From Olleya namhaensis (GTDB lineage: Bacteria > Bacteroidota > Bacteroidia > Flavobacteriales > Flavobacteriaceae), in contig NZ_FORM01000004.1 of assembly GCF_900114005.1 (NCBI RefSeq), forward strand, positions 124,001-188,000: a stretch of DNA of 64,000 nt, given 5' to 3'. The notes under the pieces are model-generated. The model did not search any database, had not been told where the DNA came from, and saw nothing but the letters and a program-made list of their open reading frames with translations. The translations under genes and the position numbers were made by a program. Shown here piece after piece: positions 28,888 to 35,110 of the stretch; position 1 is the stretch's first letter, and the number at the start of each line of letters is the position of its first letter.

Positions 28888-30270
28888 ATGGTATTAAGTA
28901 ATTACACTAAAGAGTTTAAATACAACTGGCAGCTTGCAGCTCCGGTTATGTTGGGAATGCTTGGTCATACATTTGTCAGTTTTGTAGATAATATCATGGT
29001 TGGTCAAATGGGAACAGCAGAGTTAGCTGCTGTGTCATTAGGTAATAGTTTTATGTTTATTGCCATGTCAATTGGTATCGGGTTTAGCACTGCTATTACG
29101 CCTTTGGTGGCAGAAGCAGATAGTGCAAACGACTTTGATAAAGGTAAATCGGCATTTAAACACGGGTTGTTTTTGTGTACCGTTTTAGGGATTTTGTTAT
29201 TCTTATTAGTGTTTTTTGCTAAACCTTTAATGTATTTAATGAAGCAGCCTATTGAGGTTGTGGAGTTGGCTATTCCATATTTGGACTTAGTCGCGTTTTC
29301 ATTAATTCCATTAATTATATTTCAAGGGTTTAAACAGTTTAGTGATGGGTTGTCATTAACTAAATACCCAATGTATGCTACAATTTTAGCCAATTTAATA
29401 AACGTAGGATTAAACTACTTGCTAATCTTTGGTAAGTTTGGTTTCCCAGAAATGGGAATAATCGGTGCAGCTTACGGAACGCTGGTATCGCGTATTATAA
29501 TGGTAATCTATTTATGGTGGTTGTTAAAAGGACGCGCTAAATCTAAAGACTACGTCACCAATATTAAATTTTTTGTATTAGATAAATTAATGCTTAAAAA
29601 AATTATAGGATTAGGAACGCCTAGTGCTATGCAAATGTTTTTTGAAGTAGCCATTTTTACTGCTGCCATTTGGCTTAGTGGATTATTAGGTAAAAACCCT
29701 CAAGCAGCCAATCAAGTGGCCTTAAACTTAAGTTCTATGACCTTTATGGTGGCAATGGGACTTAGTGTTGCTTCTATGATTAGGGTTGGTAACCAAAAAG
29801 GATTACATCAATATTTAGAGTTGCGTCGTATTGCGGTGTCCTTATTTTTAATGGGCTTTATTTTTGCAGTTATTTTCGCATCTTTATTCTTGATTTTTAA
29901 TCAATTTTTACCTTGTTTATATGTCGATTTTGATGATGTTGTAAACTTTAAGGACAATATGGAAGTGGTCACAATAGCTTCAAAATTGTTAATTGCAGCA
30001 GCAGTGTTTCAAATTAGTGATAGTTTGCAAGTTGTTGTTCTTGGAGCTTTAAGAGGACTTCAGGATGTTAAAATTCCAACTATAATTACATTTATCTCAT
30101 ACTGGTTAATTGGATTCCCAATCAGTTGGTATTTTGGTAAGGAAGACGCTTATGGTAGCTTTGGTATTTGGTTAGGATTACTAGCTGGTTTAACTTCTGC
30201 AGCTATTTTATTGTTTATACGTTTTAATTATCTAACTAAAAGGTTAATTTTGAACTCGGCTAATAACTAA
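28888..30270 (+). CDS. MATE-family multidrug/sodium efflux transporter
   Basis: This 460-residue protein has about twelve membrane helices arranged in two homologous halves, beginning with LAAPVMLGMLGHTFVSFVDNIMVG and a second-half partner near LGTPSAMQMFFEVAIFTAA, the hallmark of MATE exporters. It resembles NorM/YdhE-type cation-coupled antiporters of the inner membrane. The substrate is not predictable. It is probably co-transcribed with the downstream small gene and the PAP2 phosphatase. Confidence 0.93.
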   Translation: MVLSNYTKEFKYNWQLAAPVMLGMLGHTFVSFVDNIMVGQMGTAELAAVSLGNSFMFIAMSIGIGFSTAITPLVAEADSANDFDKGKSAFKHGLFLCTVLGILLFLLVFFAKPLMYLMKQPIEVVELAIPYLDLVAFSLIPLIIFQGFKQFSDGLSLTKYPMYATILANLINVGLNYLLIFGKFGFPEMGIIGAAYGTLVSRIIMVIYLWWLLKGRAKSKDYVTNIKFFVLDKLMLKKIIGLGTPSAMQMFFEVAIFTAAIWLSGLLGKNPQAANQVALNLSSMTFMVAMGLSVASMIRVGNQKGLHQYLELRRIAVSLFLMGFIFAVIFASLFLIFNQFLPCLYVDFDDVVNFKDNMEVVTIASKLLIAAAVFQISDSLQVVVLGALRGLQDVKIPTIITFISYWLIGFPISWYFGKEDAYGSFGIWLGLLAGLTSAAILLFIRFNYLTKRLILNSANN

Positions 30271-30530: not shown

Positions 30531-31106
30531 ATGTTAGACCAATTAGTACAATACGATAAAGAGCTTTTTTTATTTTTAAACGGATTAGGATCTACCACTT
30601 GGGATGGTTTCTGGATGTTTTATACAGATAAAGTTCATTGGATTCCGTTTTACGGAATCTTAGCCTATTTTATGTACAAACGGTCTAATACAAAAATGTT
30701 TGTATTAACGGTTGTAGTTATTGCTTTAATGATTTTATTTACAGACCAAATTACAAACCTTTTCAAAAAAGTATTGGTAAGACGTCCTAGACCTTGTCAT
30801 GAAGACGATCTTATTCAGGTCATGCGCTTAGTTAAGTCGTCCTGTGGTGGTGCTTTTGGGTACTTTTCTGGTCATGCCAGTAATAGTATGGCAGTTGCTA
30901 TTTTTTCTGGATTAGTATTACGCTATAAATACAAGTATTTAATATATTTCTTGATAGTTTGGGCAATAGTAATGGCTTACAGCAGAGTGTATATTGGAGT
31001 ACATTATCCTTTAGATATATTAAGCGGAATGTTATTTGGTGCCTTTTCTGGAGTCTTGTTTTACAAGTTAGATAAGTACTTTCAATCTAGATTTCAGTTA
31101 AAATAA
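30531..31106 (+). CDS. PAP2-family membrane phosphatase
   Basis: This 191-residue integral membrane phosphatase has all three PAP2 motifs: KX6RP at residues 80-88, PSGH-type FSGH with SGH at 113-115, and SRX5H at 151-158 (SRVYIGVH). About five membrane helices are visible. Members dephosphorylate undecaprenyl diphosphate, phosphatidate/PGP or lipid A. It ends one base from the convergent GT39 gene of the glycosyltransferase cassette, so a role in lipid A or lipid carrier metabolism is attractive but inferred. Confidence 0.92.
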   Translation: MLDQLVQYDKELFLFLNGLGSTTWDGFWMFYTDKVHWIPFYGILAYFMYKRSNTKMFVLTVVVIALMILFTDQITNLFKKVLVRRPRPCHEDDLIQVMRLVKSSCGGAFGYFSGHASNSMAVAIFSGLVLRYKYKYLIYFLIVWAIVMAYSRVYIGVHYPLDILSGMLFGAFSGVLFYKLDKYFQSRFQLK

Positions 31107-31107
31107 A

Positions 31108-32742
31108 TTACTTCTTTTTAAGATAATAATACTTAGCAATCAGTCGGTCTTTATACTGTTTGCTATCTGGCGCGCTTTCATTTAAATCGTAAGTTGTCTG
31201 TTGTGTAATAGTATAAATTTTACTTATCGCCTCTAAATCCTTTTGACTCATATAATCAGATAGGACAGCAAATTCATTCTCTAAAGGAAAATTAAAAGTA
31301 GTCTTGTCTTTAGAGATCTTCGGGATCTTTTCGCCATATTGCCATATTACTTCAGGCGCAATATTATTGATAATATAAAGTTTGGTATTTGTGTTTTTGG
31401 TTTCTTTTAAAAGCTCAGAAATTGGCTTAAAATTGTCACTAGTAAAGCTTTTTGTTAACGGTAAACCGAAAAGAAAGATAGCTGCAAAAAACGCAGTGGT
31501 TAATAAGAAAACTGATTTAATCTCTTTTTTTATTAGTTGTGATAGTATTGCTAAACCTAACACAAAAACAACTATAGCAAATAGGATAAACTGAAACAGG
31601 TTAGTATTTAATTGATCAGCAAATTTAAAATACACTAAAAAAGGAGCTACAATACCAACTAGAGCAATTAAACCAAAGTTAAAATACACAGGAATAGTTT
31701 CACGCTTATCTTCTAGAGTTTTAAACTTACGAATTAAATACTCGATATAAAACCCAATATTTAAAGCCAACGGAATTAAAACAGGCATTAAATAACGTGA
31801 TTTTTTCTCAGGGATTACAGATAATAGTACAACTGCAAAAAGTGTCCAAAATAGCGTGAATTTGTAAGCTTTCAAGTTTATAACTCTTGTCTTTAAATAA
31901 GGGTATAATAAACTTATAAAAGCAGGAATAGTCCATAACCCACTTTGTGTAAAAAAGCTCCAATAGTAATAAAATGGTCTAACATTATAACTAGTCCAAT
32001 TTCCTGTTTCTTTACTTGTAATAGCAGCAAATGTTGTCGGATCTTCAAGTCTGACATAAAAGTACCACCAACCACCAATAACAATGGCTATTGCAAGTGT
32101 AGTTATAATAGGTAATATTTTTGTTTTGATGTTTTTATATTTAAAACTGAAACCATAGGCTAATAAAAACGGTAATAATAACGCGTAAAAGCTAACAGGA
32201 CCTTTACTTAATATAGAGCATCCAATAAATAGTGCTGCAAATAAGACGTGTTTCCAATTGGTGCTTTCAGATTTAAAAAAGGTAAATAAGTAGTATATGG
32301 CTATCATCATAAAGCCATGTGTAAAAATATCCCATGGGGCTTCAATAGTGATACCAATAATATAAAATGATGTGATTAATATTAGGGTGTTTATTATACT
32401 ATGCGTCTTGTTTTGTAATATAGATTCTGATAGTTTAAAACTAAAAACAGCTAATACCATAATCATTAGTATAGCAGGTAGACGCATTCCAAAGATACTC
32501 TTTACTCCAAAAAGTAGTCCTGAAAAAGCAGTCAGCCATGTTGGTAATGGTGGTTTTTCATAACGTGCTTCGCCATTCATGGTGGTTAATAGCCAGTTAT
32601 TATCCTGTATCATTTCTCTTGCAGTAATAAAATTACGTGCTTCCATGATTGTTACTTGTATGGTTTCTAAGTTTGGTAATAACATAATTGCTATAATCAA
32701 ACAAATAATAGTAAGCGGATAATCTTTAAATAGCTTAGGCAT
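31108..32742 (-). CDS. ArnT-like GT39-family membrane glycosyltransferase
   Basis: This 544-residue polytopic protein has the ArnT/PMT-type N-terminal loop: Glu34 and Arg36 in MEARNFITAREM, NGEARYEKPPLP at 56-67 and WLTAFSGLLFG. About ten to twelve helices precede a C-terminal periplasmic domain (from about 430). These enzymes move a sugar from a polyprenyl phosphate to lipid A or protein outside the membrane. Its start overlaps the LAB_N gene stop by eight bases; it is the last gene of a three-gene operon (GT2, LAB_N, GT39). Confidence 0.9.
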   Translation of the reverse strand: MPKLFKDYPLTIICLIIAIMLLPNLETIQVTIMEARNFITAREMIQDNNWLLTTMNGEARYEKPPLPTWLTAFSGLLFGVKSIFGMRLPAILMIMVLAVFSFKLSESILQNKTHSIINTLILITSFYIIGITIEAPWDIFTHGFMMIAIYYLFTFFKSESTNWKHVLFAALFIGCSILSKGPVSFYALLLPFLLAYGFSFKYKNIKTKILPIITTLAIAIVIGGWWYFYVRLEDPTTFAAITSKETGNWTSYNVRPFYYYWSFFTQSGLWTIPAFISLLYPYLKTRVINLKAYKFTLFWTLFAVVLLSVIPEKKSRYLMPVLIPLALNIGFYIEYLIRKFKTLEDKRETIPVYFNFGLIALVGIVAPFLVYFKFADQLNTNLFQFILFAIVVFVLGLAILSQLIKKEIKSVFLLTTAFFAAIFLFGLPLTKSFTSDNFKPISELLKETKNTNTKLYIINNIAPEVIWQYGEKIPKISKDKTTFNFPLENEFAVLSDYMSQKDLEAISKIYTITQQTTYDLNESAPDSKQYKDRLIAKYYYLKKK

Positions 32743-33358
32743 TTTGTTGTTTTAAAATTAACAAATTTCTGACGTAAATAACCGCTCCTAAGGAGTGTCC
32801 CACTAGCAGTACATAGTCTACTCTAAAAATAGCGTAGGTTAAAATTAATAGGGATCCTATTAGGCTTAACGCCCAAAACCCAAGAGGTAAAGACGATTCT
32901 TTGTTTTTTTCAGAATATAGCCATTGGTATACAAAACGTAATGTAAATACTATTTGAGAAACTATCCCTAATACTAATAACCATAATGGGATGGCTTGGT
33001 TTTTAAATAACTTAACCGTATCAATAGCGTTGTTGTTAAAATAGAAAACGGTAATAAAAACAGGCATTAATAGTAAAATCCATCTGATGCCAGCCGGAAA
33101 TGTTTTCCATTGGTTTTGCAACTGTAAATTTCTAATGTAGATATAATAGGTAAGACCTTGACCTAACATAATTGCAAAGTCATCACGTAAATACCCATAA
33201 ATAAATAGTAAAAACGAAGCGATTAAACTTAGCGTCCAAAATAAGGTTGGCGTAATTACTCGTTTTTGTTTCTCGCTAGTAATCCATTGGATTATTAAAC
33301 GAGACGAGAATAAGGTTTGCGCCAAAAAACCAATGCTAAGTATAATCCAGTTGCTCAT
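32735..33358 (-). CDS. Tandem LAB_N (lipid A biosynthesis N-terminal) membrane protein
   Basis: This 207-residue protein contains two copies of the LAB_N domain. Residues 20-30 (RLIIQWITSEK) match 141-151 (RFVYQWLYSEK); 40-48 (FWTLSLIAS) match 161-169 (FWALSLIGS); 73-78 (IYIRNL) match 194-199 (IYVRNL), all offset by 121. Three helices, one linker helix (about 92-108) and three helices give a 3-1-3 layout like SWEET/PQ-loop carriers, the clan to which LAB_N has been assigned. It is not a lipid-A-disaccharide synthase despite the domain name. Start and stop overlap both neighbours. Confidence 0.9.
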   Translation of the reverse strand: MSNWIILSIGFLAQTLFSSRLIIQWITSEKQKRVITPTLFWTLSLIASFLLFIYGYLRDDFAIMLGQGLTYYIYIRNLQLQNQWKTFPAGIRWILLLMPVFITVFYFNNNAIDTVKLFKNQAIPLWLLVLGIVSQIVFTLRFVYQWLYSEKNKESSLPLGFWALSLIGSLLILTYAIFRVDYVLLVGHSLGAVIYVRNLLILKQQNA

Positions 33359-34071
33359 TATTTTTTCTTAGCGACTTCGTAATTAATGTACTTTTTCTTC
33401 ATCCATAAATACGCAAAACAGTCCATTAAAGGTCCTAAAAGCCTATTCCAAACCCCAAATTTTGCTTCTCCAGCAACTCTTGGAAAGTGCTGTACCGTTA
33501 TTTGCTTAGTTGTTCCGTTTTGTAACATGATCATAGCTGGTAAAAAACGGTGCAACCCTTTAAACATTGGGATACGTTTAGCATAATCTGTTTTGATAAC
33601 TTTTAAAGGACAACCTGTGTCATCCATTCCATCTTTTGTAAAAGCACGTCTAATACCATTTGCAATTTTAGACGACATGTTTTTTACAAAACTATCTTTT
33701 CGGTTAGAGCGGACACCAGTAACTAAATCAAATTCACCAATATGTGCTAGTAGTAGATTAAAGTCTTCAGGAGCTGTTTGTAAGTCTGAGTCAATATACC
33801 CAACTAACTCCGTTGTAGTATAGTCAAAACCAGCTTTTATTGCAGCACTTAAACCACGATTTTCTTTAAATAATATGTAGTCAAAAGCATCATGTCTGCT
33901 GCAAATAGCTTCGATTAATGCTTGACTTTTATCTTTTGAGCCATCATTAACAAATAATATTTTAGTTGTTTTTGTTGCTATTTGCGTGTAAGCTAATAAC
34001 TCCTTTTCAACTCTTAATAAATTATCTTCCTCGTTATATACAGGAACAATGATGGTAAACTGGTAATTCAT
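33358..34071 (-). CDS. GT2-family polyprenyl-phosphate sugar synthase (DPM1/ArnC-like)
   Basis: This 237-residue GT-A fold glycosyltransferase has IIVPVYNEEDNL at the start, VNDGSKDKS (41-49) and the metal-binding Asp94-Ser-Asp96. It lacks the C-terminal membrane helices of ArnC or GtrB and so resembles soluble dolichyl-phosphate mannose synthase-like enzymes. It probably makes a polyprenyl-phosphate sugar used by the downstream GT39 enzyme. Its stop overlaps the LAB_N start by one base (33358). It is the first gene of the operon and is divergent from the epimerase gene. Confidence 0.9.
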   Translation of the reverse strand: MNYQFTIIVPVYNEEDNLLRVEKELLAYTQIATKTTKILFVNDGSKDKSQALIEAICSRHDAFDYILFKENRGLSAAIKAGFDYTTTELVGYIDSDLQTAPEDFNLLLAHIGEFDLVTGVRSNRKDSFVKNMSSKIANGIRRAFTKDGMDDTGCPLKVIKTDYAKRIPMFKGLHRFLPAMIMLQNGTTKQITVQHFPRVAGEAKFGVWNRLLGPLMDCFAYLWMKKKYINYEVAKKK

Positions 34072-34165
34072 AAACCTATTTTAGTGCTACAAATGTATTG
34101 TTTTTTAGATAATTGAAATCGGTATCGAAAAAAAATATGTTTCTTTGTAGTATACAAATGCACTT

Positions 34166-35110
34166 ATGAAGATTTTAGTTACTGGAGCAGCAGGTTTTAT
34201 AGGCTCTCACACATGCGAACGTTTACACGATTTAGGTCATGATGTTGTTGGTTTAGATAATTTTAATGATTATTATAGCTTAGCGCTGAAAACCTTAAAC
34301 GAAAAGGCACTTTTAGAAAAAGGAATCAAGATTATTAAGACCGATTTAAGAGCTGATAATTTAGCTGAAGCTTTACCAAAAGATATTAATTATATTTTTC
34401 ATTTTGCTGCACAGCCAGGTATTTCGGCAAGTTCAACTTTTGAAGATTATTTTACTAATAATATTATTGCAACTAAAAACTTAATTGATTACGCTTTAGA
34501 GTGTTCTAACTTGGAGTTGTTTGTAAATATTGGGACGTCTTCAATTTATGGCTTGGAAGCAACTTTTCCAGAAACTAAAGCACCAGAACCAGCATCGCAT
34601 TATGGGGTTACTAAATTAGCAGCAGAGCAACTTGTATTACAAAAAAGTAGAGAGAAACTATTTAAAAGCTGTACTCTGCGTTTATATTCTGTGATTGGAC
34701 CAAGAGAACGTCCAGAGAAAATGTACACCAAATTAATAGCGTGTGCATACAATGGAGAGGCTTTCCCGTTATACGAAGGAAGTGCGACACATTTACGTAG
34801 TTTTACCTATGTTGGAGATATCGTGGATGGTATTGTTAGTGTTGTTGGTAATGACACTAAAGTAGATGGCGAAATTATTAATCTTGGTACAGAAGTAGAG
34901 CATACCACACAAGATGGTATTGAGGCGGTTGAGCAAGTTATTGGGCAGTCTATAAAAATTGATCACGTAAAAGCTAGAGTTGGAGATCAATTACGTACTA
35001 AAGCTAATATTGATAAAGCTAGAAAATTGTTAAATTATAATCCGCAGACTACTTTATTACAAGGTGTTAAAGCTCAAGTAGAATGGTACAAGACTAATTT
35101 TGTAGCGTAA
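34166..35110 (+). CDS. NAD-dependent sugar-nucleotide epimerase/dehydratase
   Basis: This 314-residue extended short-chain dehydrogenase has the NAD loop GAAGFIGSHT (7-16), the active-site Tyr146-x-x-x-Lys150 (YGVTK) and Ser125/126. Its overall pattern (YYSLALK insertion, RPEKMYTK, then RSFTYVGDIVDGIV) is closest to UDP-glucuronate/UDP-galacturonate 4-epimerases, but substrate is not proven. It is divergent from the GT2 gene by 94 bases and could supply the sugar used by that cassette. Confidence 0.9.
   Translation: MKILVTGAAGFIGSHTCERLHDLGHDVVGLDNFNDYYSLALKTLNEKALLEKGIKIIKTDLRADNLAEALPKDINYIFHFAAQPGISASSTFEDYFTNNIIATKNLIDYALECSNLELFVNIGTSSIYGLEATFPETKAPEPASHYGVTKLAAEQLVLQKSREKLFKSCTLRLYSVIGPRERPEKMYTKLIACAYNGEAFPLYEGSATHLRSFTYVGDIVDGIVSVVGNDTKVDGEIINLGTEVEHTTQDGIEAVEQVIGQSIKIDHVKARVGDQLRTKANIDKARKLLNYNPQTTLLQGVKAQVEWYKTNFVA

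Follow-up and report, generated by a model that had tools for sequence, protein, structure and literature searches.

A tandem LAB_N membrane protein between a GT2 and a GT39 glycosyltransferase in Olleya namhaensis: a candidate carrier of lipid-linked galacturonic acid

In the current study, we analysed a stretch of 64,000 nucleotides from Olleya namhaensis (RefSeq assembly GCF_900114005.1, contig NZ_FORM01000004.1, positions 124,001 to 188,000; hereafter the window), concentrating on an operon that encodes a GT2 glycosyltransferase, a membrane protein built of two LAB_N copies and an ArnT-like GT39 glycosyltransferase (Table 1). As an earlier interpretation made from the letters alone (the sequence-only reading) had claimed, the genes overlap, GT2 and LAB_N by one base and LAB_N and GT39 by eight, all on the minus strand, and they are flanked by a divergent epimerase gene and an adjacent PAP2 phosphatase gene. 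That reading placed the LAB_N protein where a flippase would be expected and took it for a polyprenyl-phosphate sugar flippase. Our analysis partly supports this interpretation and sharpens it to a three-component system of the galacturonic acid (GalA) type, with a relative of the SWEET carriers in the carrier slot. The host genome (3.52 Mb) is Flavobacteriaceae-like, and the closest LAB_N proteins, at 74-81% identity, come from Bizionia, Lacinutrix, Oceanihabitans and others.

Table 1. Features of the operon and its neighbourhood, in window coordinates (add 124000 for contig coordinates)
Feature	Position	Strand	Evidence	Predicted role or remark
GT2 glycosyltransferase, 237 aa	33358..34071	-	PF00535 (Glycos_transf_2) E 8e-26	Predicted polyprenyl-phosphate sugar (GalA) synthase
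Tandem LAB_N membrane protein, 207 aa	32735..33358	-	PF07578 E 1e-57, two stretches	Candidate lipid-linked-sugar carrier
LAB_N copy 1	33122..33334	-	PF07578 E 4.6e-29	Contig 157122-157334
LAB_N copy 2	32762..32971	-	PF07578 E 3.6e-30	Contig 156762-156971
GT39/ArnT-like GT-C glycosyltransferase, 544 aa	31108..32742	-	PMT_2 E 4e-13	Predicted periplasmic user of lipid-linked sugar
UDP-glucuronic acid 4-epimerase-like SDR	34166..35110	+	PDB matches and kept residues	Predicted UDP-GalA source
PAP2 phosphatase	30531..31106	+	PF01569 E 3.2e-22	Frequent neighbour
MATE protein	28888-30270			Neighbour of operon

The membrane protein is a clear LAB_N duplication. It scored 192.6 bits against the Pfam family (gathering cut-off, 26.7), LAB_N was its only Pfam family at E <= 0.01, and a profile search of the host genome at E <= 0.001 found no second LAB_N gene. 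The two copies lie 121 residues apart, as the sequence-only reading had it: 31 of 79 positions are identical between the halves, with a local score of 165 against a mean of 31.4 (standard deviation, 5.7; maximum, 57) in 1,000 shuffles, and shifting one half by exactly 121 residues yields 31 identities in 80 positions where shifts of 119, 120, 122 and 123 yield 5-10. In an alignment of 53 tandem proteins, the two halves have identical residues at a set of matching positions that vary little or not at all (Q14/Q135, R20/R141, Q24/Q145, W25/W146, S28/S149 and P37/P158, together with W41/W162, Y54/Y175, D60/D181, Y74/Y195 and N77/N198). In a tree of half-sequences (75 columns), the N halves formed one clade (support, 100), which fits one old duplication; the C halves and the single-copy LAB_N proteins showed no clear grouping. 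The window protein also aligned with positions 10-218 of the 610 in the LpxB model PRK01021 (3e-25, below cut-off), so that tandem LAB_N is not confined to Bacteroidota; the catalytic domain of the LpxB disaccharide synthase is absent from the 207-residue protein.

Several searches tied this protein to the SemiSWEETs. A profile of 53 proteins matched seven PDB sequences at E <= 10, all of them SemiSWEETs (best, 5.9e-5; four at <= 0.0016), and a nine-protein profile gave five SemiSWEET matches (best, 1.5e-5). The window protein alone found the SemiSWEET 4qnd at 0.022, the next match being an endolysin with an E value of 1, and a profile of single-copy LAB_N proteins reached SemiSWEETs only at 0.055-0.18. 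The MtN3_slv family matched 51 of the 53 tandem proteins at E <= 1 (best, 1.2e-6) but missed the window protein, which scored 3.8e-6, below cut-off, against the NCBIfam model SemiSWEET_3. The claim that LAB_N shares a clan with the PQ-loop and SWEET proteins is borne out by an excerpt of PMC4499210, which lists MtN3_slv, PQ-loop, MPC, ER lumen receptor and LAB_N as members of Pfam's MtN3-like clan. In a passage of PMC3281891, MPDU1, SWEETs and KDEL receptors are treated as one family, within which transferred names are called misleading.

The functional motifs of SWEETs and SemiSWEETs are the PQ motif and the Trp and Asn of the pocket. None of these was kept in LAB_N: the PQ proline is replaced by Tyr in 53 of 53 proteins at column 144 and by V, L, I or Y in at least 51 of 53 at column 23, column 51, the counterpart of Trp48 in 4qnc, has L in 39, M in 8 and F in 6, and Asn64 aligns with Q67. 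PQ is retained by all seven SemiSWEET-like proteins shown from other Bacteroidota. One could still suppose that the LAB_N protein behaves like a SWEET, exporting some small unbound sugar or metabolite, and that its position in the operon has no mechanistic meaning; the SemiSWEET homology would suit this. We nevertheless consider it highly improbable: the motif residues are gone, the relatives of the two enzymes, ArnC and ArnT, act on lipid-linked sugars, and fusions of LAB_N to GT39 (see below) would be hard to explain. Plain sugar export was accordingly set aside on motif and gene context.

Two AlphaFold2 models of the LAB_N protein, built from 9 and 53 sequences, had predicted local distance difference test scores of 83.1 and 87.2 and predicted template modelling scores of 0.78 and 0.80, respectively. 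Both predict the 3-1-3 layout that the sequence-only reading had drawn (helices 3-31, 38-57 and 61-80, then 89-108, then 125-152, 159-179 and 182-206), and both carry an additional short helix at 114-118. AtSWEET13 was the top Foldseek match of each (probability 0.95 and 0.75, but E 0.19 and 0.37), and neither model had a match at E < 0.001. In VIA-align 2, where a Z below about 13 can mean little for helical bundles, the first model matched the SemiSWEET 4qnc with a Z of 10.2 (1.5 Å over 81), drawing on model residues 5-205 and hence on the two halves together; a swapped packing in this model may be the reason. For the second model, designed bundles led; SemiSWEET followed at Z 6.1 (3.0 Å over 84) and the KDEL receptor at Z 6.0 (1.8 Å over 81). 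A separate observation is that the first model lies closer to the vitamin B3 carrier PnuC (leading with Z 12.4, 4.8 Å over 154) than to SWEETs, a lead that PnuC loses in the second (Z 8.5). A SWEET-like pore had been named as the check on the earlier interpretation. The part that stands is the SemiSWEET kinship; the bundle appears SWEET-like in sequence and topology, and the two models leave the idea unrefuted while not establishing a whole SWEET-like pore.

Both enzymes have their best NCBIfam models in the Arn system. The model for the GT2 is ArnC (1.8e-29, far below cut-off). The sequence-only reading had called this enzyme DPM1-like, which is apt in that a simple hydropathy count gave it no membrane helices, the C-terminal ones included, but not in sequence, ArnC being its nearest PDB match (6.8e-26) and sll0501 the next. 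For the GT39, the best model is that of ArnT (PRK13279; E 7.4e-23, again far below cut-off).

The epimerase bears on the sugar. Its PDB matches were headed by the 6zl6 group (2e-51), which we take to be the Bacillus cereus uridine diphosphate (UDP)-glucuronic acid (GlcA) 4-epimerase, followed by MoeE5 (5.6e-42), a deoxythymidine diphosphate-glucose dehydratase (7.1e-36) and, as the best GalE, an entry at 3.5e-27. MoeE5 is a UDP-GlcA 4-epimerase whose carboxylate contacts are given in an excerpt of PMC7984243 as Thr126, Ser127, Ser128 and Thr178 (main chain), and a passage of PMC12338863 names Arg185 (B. cereus numbering) as a carboxylate binder. The window epimerase keeps T124, S125, S126, Y146, S175 and R182; the carboxylate-binding Thr-Ser-Ser and Arg are thus present. 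Among 64 aligned homologues, the window protein included, the combination was TSSYSR in 44, SSSYTR in 17 and neither in 3. The genes run Ugd-epimerase-GT2-LAB_N in a row in Paenibacillus and GT2-LAB_N-epimerase-Ugd-GT39 in Cetobacterium, and the host genome has Ugd-type genes elsewhere. Since the epimerase is of the UDP-GlcA 4-epimerase type, the sugar is probably GalA: judged from sequence, UDP-GalA is the favoured product, and GalA would then be the cargo.

The co-occurrence survey that had been proposed for these genes bore the association out. We counted 127 loci (the window, 11 from a draw across the phylum, the 80 nearest genome-contig loci, 10 plasmid loci and 25 from two orders) under one rule, with open-ended frames, profiles at E 1e-5 and 4.5 kb on each side of LAB_N. 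GT2 and GT39 occurred together near LAB_N in 109. GT2 was near in 116 (window, 1; phylum, 9; nearest, 78; plasmid, 9; orders, 19), GT39 in 115 and the epimerase in 62. Most of the 80 nearest loci belong to close relatives, so the weight rests on the remaining sets. LAB_N itself is patchy (E < 1e-20), being found in 11 of 296 genomes of the phylum, the host included, in 16 of 194 of the order of genome G072 and in 15 of 198 of the order of G238. Within 3.2-kb loci, a GT2 gene accompanied 27 of 35 strong LAB_N genes versus 0 of 27 SemiSWEET-like controls (Fisher 1.5e-10, a value that assumes independent loci, whereas these share ancestry).

The trio was seen in three bacterial phyla. Eight plasmid loci, from Azospirillum (two), Thalassospira, Paracoccus, Pelagovum, Ilyobacter, Cetobacterium and Paenibacillus, encode a single LAB_N of 91-119 residues, and two more are from Bacteroidota; in Alphaproteobacteria and Fusobacteriota, the single-copy form has the same kinds of neighbouring genes as the tandem form. 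The Paracoccus order is LAB_N-GT39-GT2-epimerase. One GT39 gene (locus L128) had no Pfam match and was called by our own profile. As side observations, genes for a response regulator and a sensor kinase are found next to the LAB_N operon, or close to it, in L124, L125, L127, L129 and L132, an arrangement that recalls PmrAB and suggests stress control of some of these operons. In L033 (6217-8175; G107:C91), two similar membrane genes stand beside GT2, tandem LAB_N and GT39; one of them matched PF04018, undecaprenyl phosphate translocase-like, at 7.3e-104, and lipid-carrier recycling may be encoded in the same cluster.

What replaces LAB_N where it is missing is informative. From more than 100 listed GT39 loci, 20 without LAB_N nearby were picked by rank and variety, not randomly (DISPLACEMENT). 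A GT2 gene lay within 3 kb (E <= 1e-5) in nine of these, and all nine carried PF03706, which Pfam confirmed for six representatives and the 'flippase-like' model TIGR00374 for one. The others comprised one PF03706 locus without GT2, two with an epimerase and eight with none of these genes. The GT2s of the nine loci are 308-352 residues long with two or three membrane helices; those on the LAB_N side are about 238 residues long, with a helix, always single, in 0/10, 3/82, 0/9 and 0/1 frames and in one further case (L253). Within 4.5 kb of LAB_N, PF03706 was found in 0 of the 127 loci; 286 of the 296 genomes of the phylum carry the family. In a GT39 tree (built quickly, with long branches and 29 rows whose letter composition is unusual), the PF03706-partnered L167 fell within a clade of 33 rows, 31 of them LAB_N-partnered (support, 100 in the Shimodaira-Hasegawa-like approximate likelihood ratio test), and the LAB_N/PF03706 label needed three changes; by this placement, L167 is a GT39 of a LAB_N clade that has switched partners. 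Loci L178 and L179 keep the MATE-PAP2-GT39 order of the window, with GT39 on the other strand, and there GT2 and PF03706 replace GT2 and LAB_N. Displacement, L167 and L178/L179 together make the two pairs, LAB_N with a short GT2 and PF03706 with a helix-bearing GT2, look interchangeable.

Fusions place LAB_N beside the predicted consumer of the sugar. Single proteins of 732-753 residues that join tandem LAB_N to GT39 were found in L037, L248, L251 and L264; their GT39 parts form one clade (support, 100), as if the fusion had arisen a single time. Among the loci, no protein joining GT2 to LAB_N was noticed. With the nine displaced loci, these fusions uphold the statement that the protein stands in the place of a flippase. 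Nor did a partner flippase turn up beside the operon: LAB_N, not an ArnE/F-type protein, lies between GT2 and GT39, and no GtrA (PF04138) matched anywhere in the host genome at E <= 0.001, while no search for ArnE/F-like proteins was made outside the operon.

We consider it marginally probable that the operon and its epimerase form a three-component system in which the LAB_N protein carries polyprenyl-phosphate-GalA from the GT2 to the GT39. The epimerase would convert UDP-GlcA to UDP-GalA, and on the inner side of the membrane the soluble GT2 would load GalA onto polyprenyl phosphate; the LAB_N protein, a putative fused SemiSWEET-type dimer, would carry the lipid-linked sugar to the outer face, where the GT39 would attach GalA to an acceptor in the envelope, such as lipid A. 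Four elements of this scheme are what we infer: polyprenyl phosphate as the lipid, GalA as the cargo, translocation by LAB_N and the identity of the acceptor. Lipid A as the only acceptor was set aside as unproven, the GT2-LAB_N operon also occurring in Paenibacillus, a Gram-positive genus without lipid A. Of the flippase claim, the placement in the carrier slot and the SemiSWEET kinship hold, while the flipping itself is a deduction and much of the same evidence could be explained by an anchor role.

Such a role is the main rival, and we regard it as possible though unlikely: LAB_N would be the membrane anchor or assembly partner of a helix-less GT2 and would move no lipid. DPM2 and DPM3 provide a precedent with DPM1, as does the GtrA-type membrane domain of some DPM synthases. 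LAB_N accompanies helix-less GT2s where PF03706 accompanies helix-bearing ones, so the displacement pattern also fits an anchor, and of 76 GT2-LAB_N gene pairs measured, 58 share 1 or 4 bases. Tandem LAB_N also matches the N-terminus of the LpxB model, LpxB being another cytoplasmic-face enzyme, and an excerpt of PMC3937554 describes LAB_N in Chlamydiaceae as next to, then fused to, lpxB; this weighs against a carrier because no sugar-lipid need be flipped there. Against an anchor, the only fusions seen in our loci join LAB_N to GT39 and none joins it to GT2, and an anchor alone would leave the system without an adjacent translocator, GtrA being absent from the host genome and PF03706 from the surroundings of LAB_N in all 127 loci. 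The mirrored polar residues of the two halves also seem to exceed what an anchor needs. The two roles are in any case compatible rather than exclusive.

Other findings likewise count against a carrier role. Eleven loci lack a nearby GT2. In three (L059, L068 and L267) the contig ends less than 1 kb from LAB_N on the expected GT2 side, but the other eight (L039, L040, L132, L245, L262, L263, L266 and L268) are not cut in this way, and L039, L245, L263, L266 and the truncated L268 had no partner at all. In Paenibacillus, the 12 kb surrounding the operon yielded no GT39. Locus L169, one of the eight LAB_N-less loci noted above as having none of the genes, has a weak GT2 (246 residues, 8e-5, one possible helix) beside its GT39 and no PF03706 match at E <= 1e-5. 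The host's two PF03706 genes lie on another contig, and their proteins could act in trans. One of the two belongs to a second host cluster, L269 (G000:C22:538000-552000), which also encodes a 242-residue GT2, DUF2061 and a DUF6056 membrane protein; it is perhaps a further three-component system and is a counter-example to the pairing of PF03706 with long GT2s.

Some GT2-less loci have neighbours of their own. In L039, L245 and L132, tandem LAB_N lies beside RND efflux genes (tested as ACR_tran in L245, annotated in L132 and by likeness in L039), the next gene in L039 and L245 being GH3-family-like (tested in L039). In L263 and L266, two genomes of one family, it adjoins a ribonuclease III gene (tested in L263), with neither GT2 nor GT39 within 4.5 kb.

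Two further explanations leave translocation to another protein. In the first, LAB_N would act like MPDU1, binding the polyprenyl-phosphate sugar and handing it on. Besides the shared Pfam clan (PMC4499210, in excerpt), this draws on MPDU1 being a PQ-loop protein required in all known mammalian monosaccharide-P-dolichol reactions (a passage of PMC3281891) and being termed a likely 'dolichol chaperone' (PMC7809446, in part), though an excerpt of PMC6850978 credits it with a part in flipping. We think this quite unlikely, as yet another bacterial translocator would be required and none was found next to the operon. In the second, the neighbouring MATE protein would do the translocating and LAB_N would assist it. 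Of 79 anchored close relatives, 57 have a MATE homologue that begins no more than 5 kb from LAB_N, a frequency that also tells somewhat against LAB_N as the carrier; a PAP2 homologue begins in that range in 66. No MATE gene stands among the annotated neighbours of eight plasmid loci, for which the gene table is incomplete, and L178 and L179 retain theirs despite having PF03706, so that MATE does not track LAB_N; this explanation seems to us very unlikely.

Should the carrier reading be right, the operon may help explain how cells turn over sugar-carrying lipids in the membrane. The proteins responsible for transbilayer turnover of polyprenyl- and dolichol-phosphate monosaccharides are among the unsolved parts of glycosylation: according to a passage of PMC11127046, none of the bacterial candidates discussed there has direct evidence of flippase activity, and according to one in PMC7809446, the eukaryotic scramblase for mannosyl-phosphoryl-dolichol had yet to be identified in 2021. 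With a protein of 207 (or 91-119) residues encoded beside the enzymes that probably supply and use the lipid-linked sugar, three small genes would be enough to put this step to the test. Among the matches listed from the open-licence PMC literature, no paper gave LAB_N this carrier role.

The predicted activities resemble those of known three-component systems (GtrA/GtrB/Gtr, and the polyprenyl-P-pentofuranose systems with GT136), in which synthase, membrane carrier and GT-C enzyme share one cluster, some with auxiliary epimerases (PMC11127046, in excerpt). Unlike these, the operon would use a LAB_N/SemiSWEET-type carrier instead of GtrA or an ArnE/EmrE-like protein, and its GT2 lacks membrane helices. 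With the Arn system (ArnC, ArnT and ArnE/F) it shares ArnC-like GT2 and ArnT-like GT39 domains, but LAB_N takes the place of ArnE/F, both enzymes score far below the Arn cut-offs, and the epimerase is of the UDP-GlcA 4-epimerase type. GalA transfer to lipid A is described for Rhizobium and Mesorhizobium, where RgtE is a bactoprenyl-P-GalA synthase and RgtD and RgtF are lipid A GalA transferases, with Rgt homologues in Caulobacter and Aquifex; the portion of PMC7663294 that reports this names no LAB_N protein. The LpxB fusion of Chlamydiaceae (PRK01021) shares the tandem LAB_N and differs in its LpxB catalytic part. SemiSWEETs and SWEETs (MtN3_slv) are homologous and likewise come in half-size single-copy and duplicated 3-1-3 forms, yet LAB_N has a fixed Arg and Gln-Trp in place of the PQ motif and aligned pocket Trp, and GT2 accompanies it and not the SemiSWEET controls. 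The likeness to MPDU1/Lec35, which works with DPM1 and GT-C enzymes, is one of clan membership (PMC3281891 and PMC4499210, each in excerpt): MPDU1, too, is needed for a GT2 product to be used by GT-C enzymes on the far side of a membrane, although it is eukaryotic, acts with dolichol and has a molecular role that a passage of PMC7809446 presents as unsettled. We would suggest, tentatively and with considerable doubt, that LAB_N proteins form a distinct class of polyprenyl-monophosphate-sugar translocators on the SemiSWEET/PQ-loop fold, the bacterial counterpart of MPDU1. If so, one fold would perform the same step, between a soluble GT2 and a GT-C enzyme, for undecaprenyl-phosphate and dolichol-phosphate sugars, and the half-size (homodimeric) and duplicated forms of the carrier would both still be in use.

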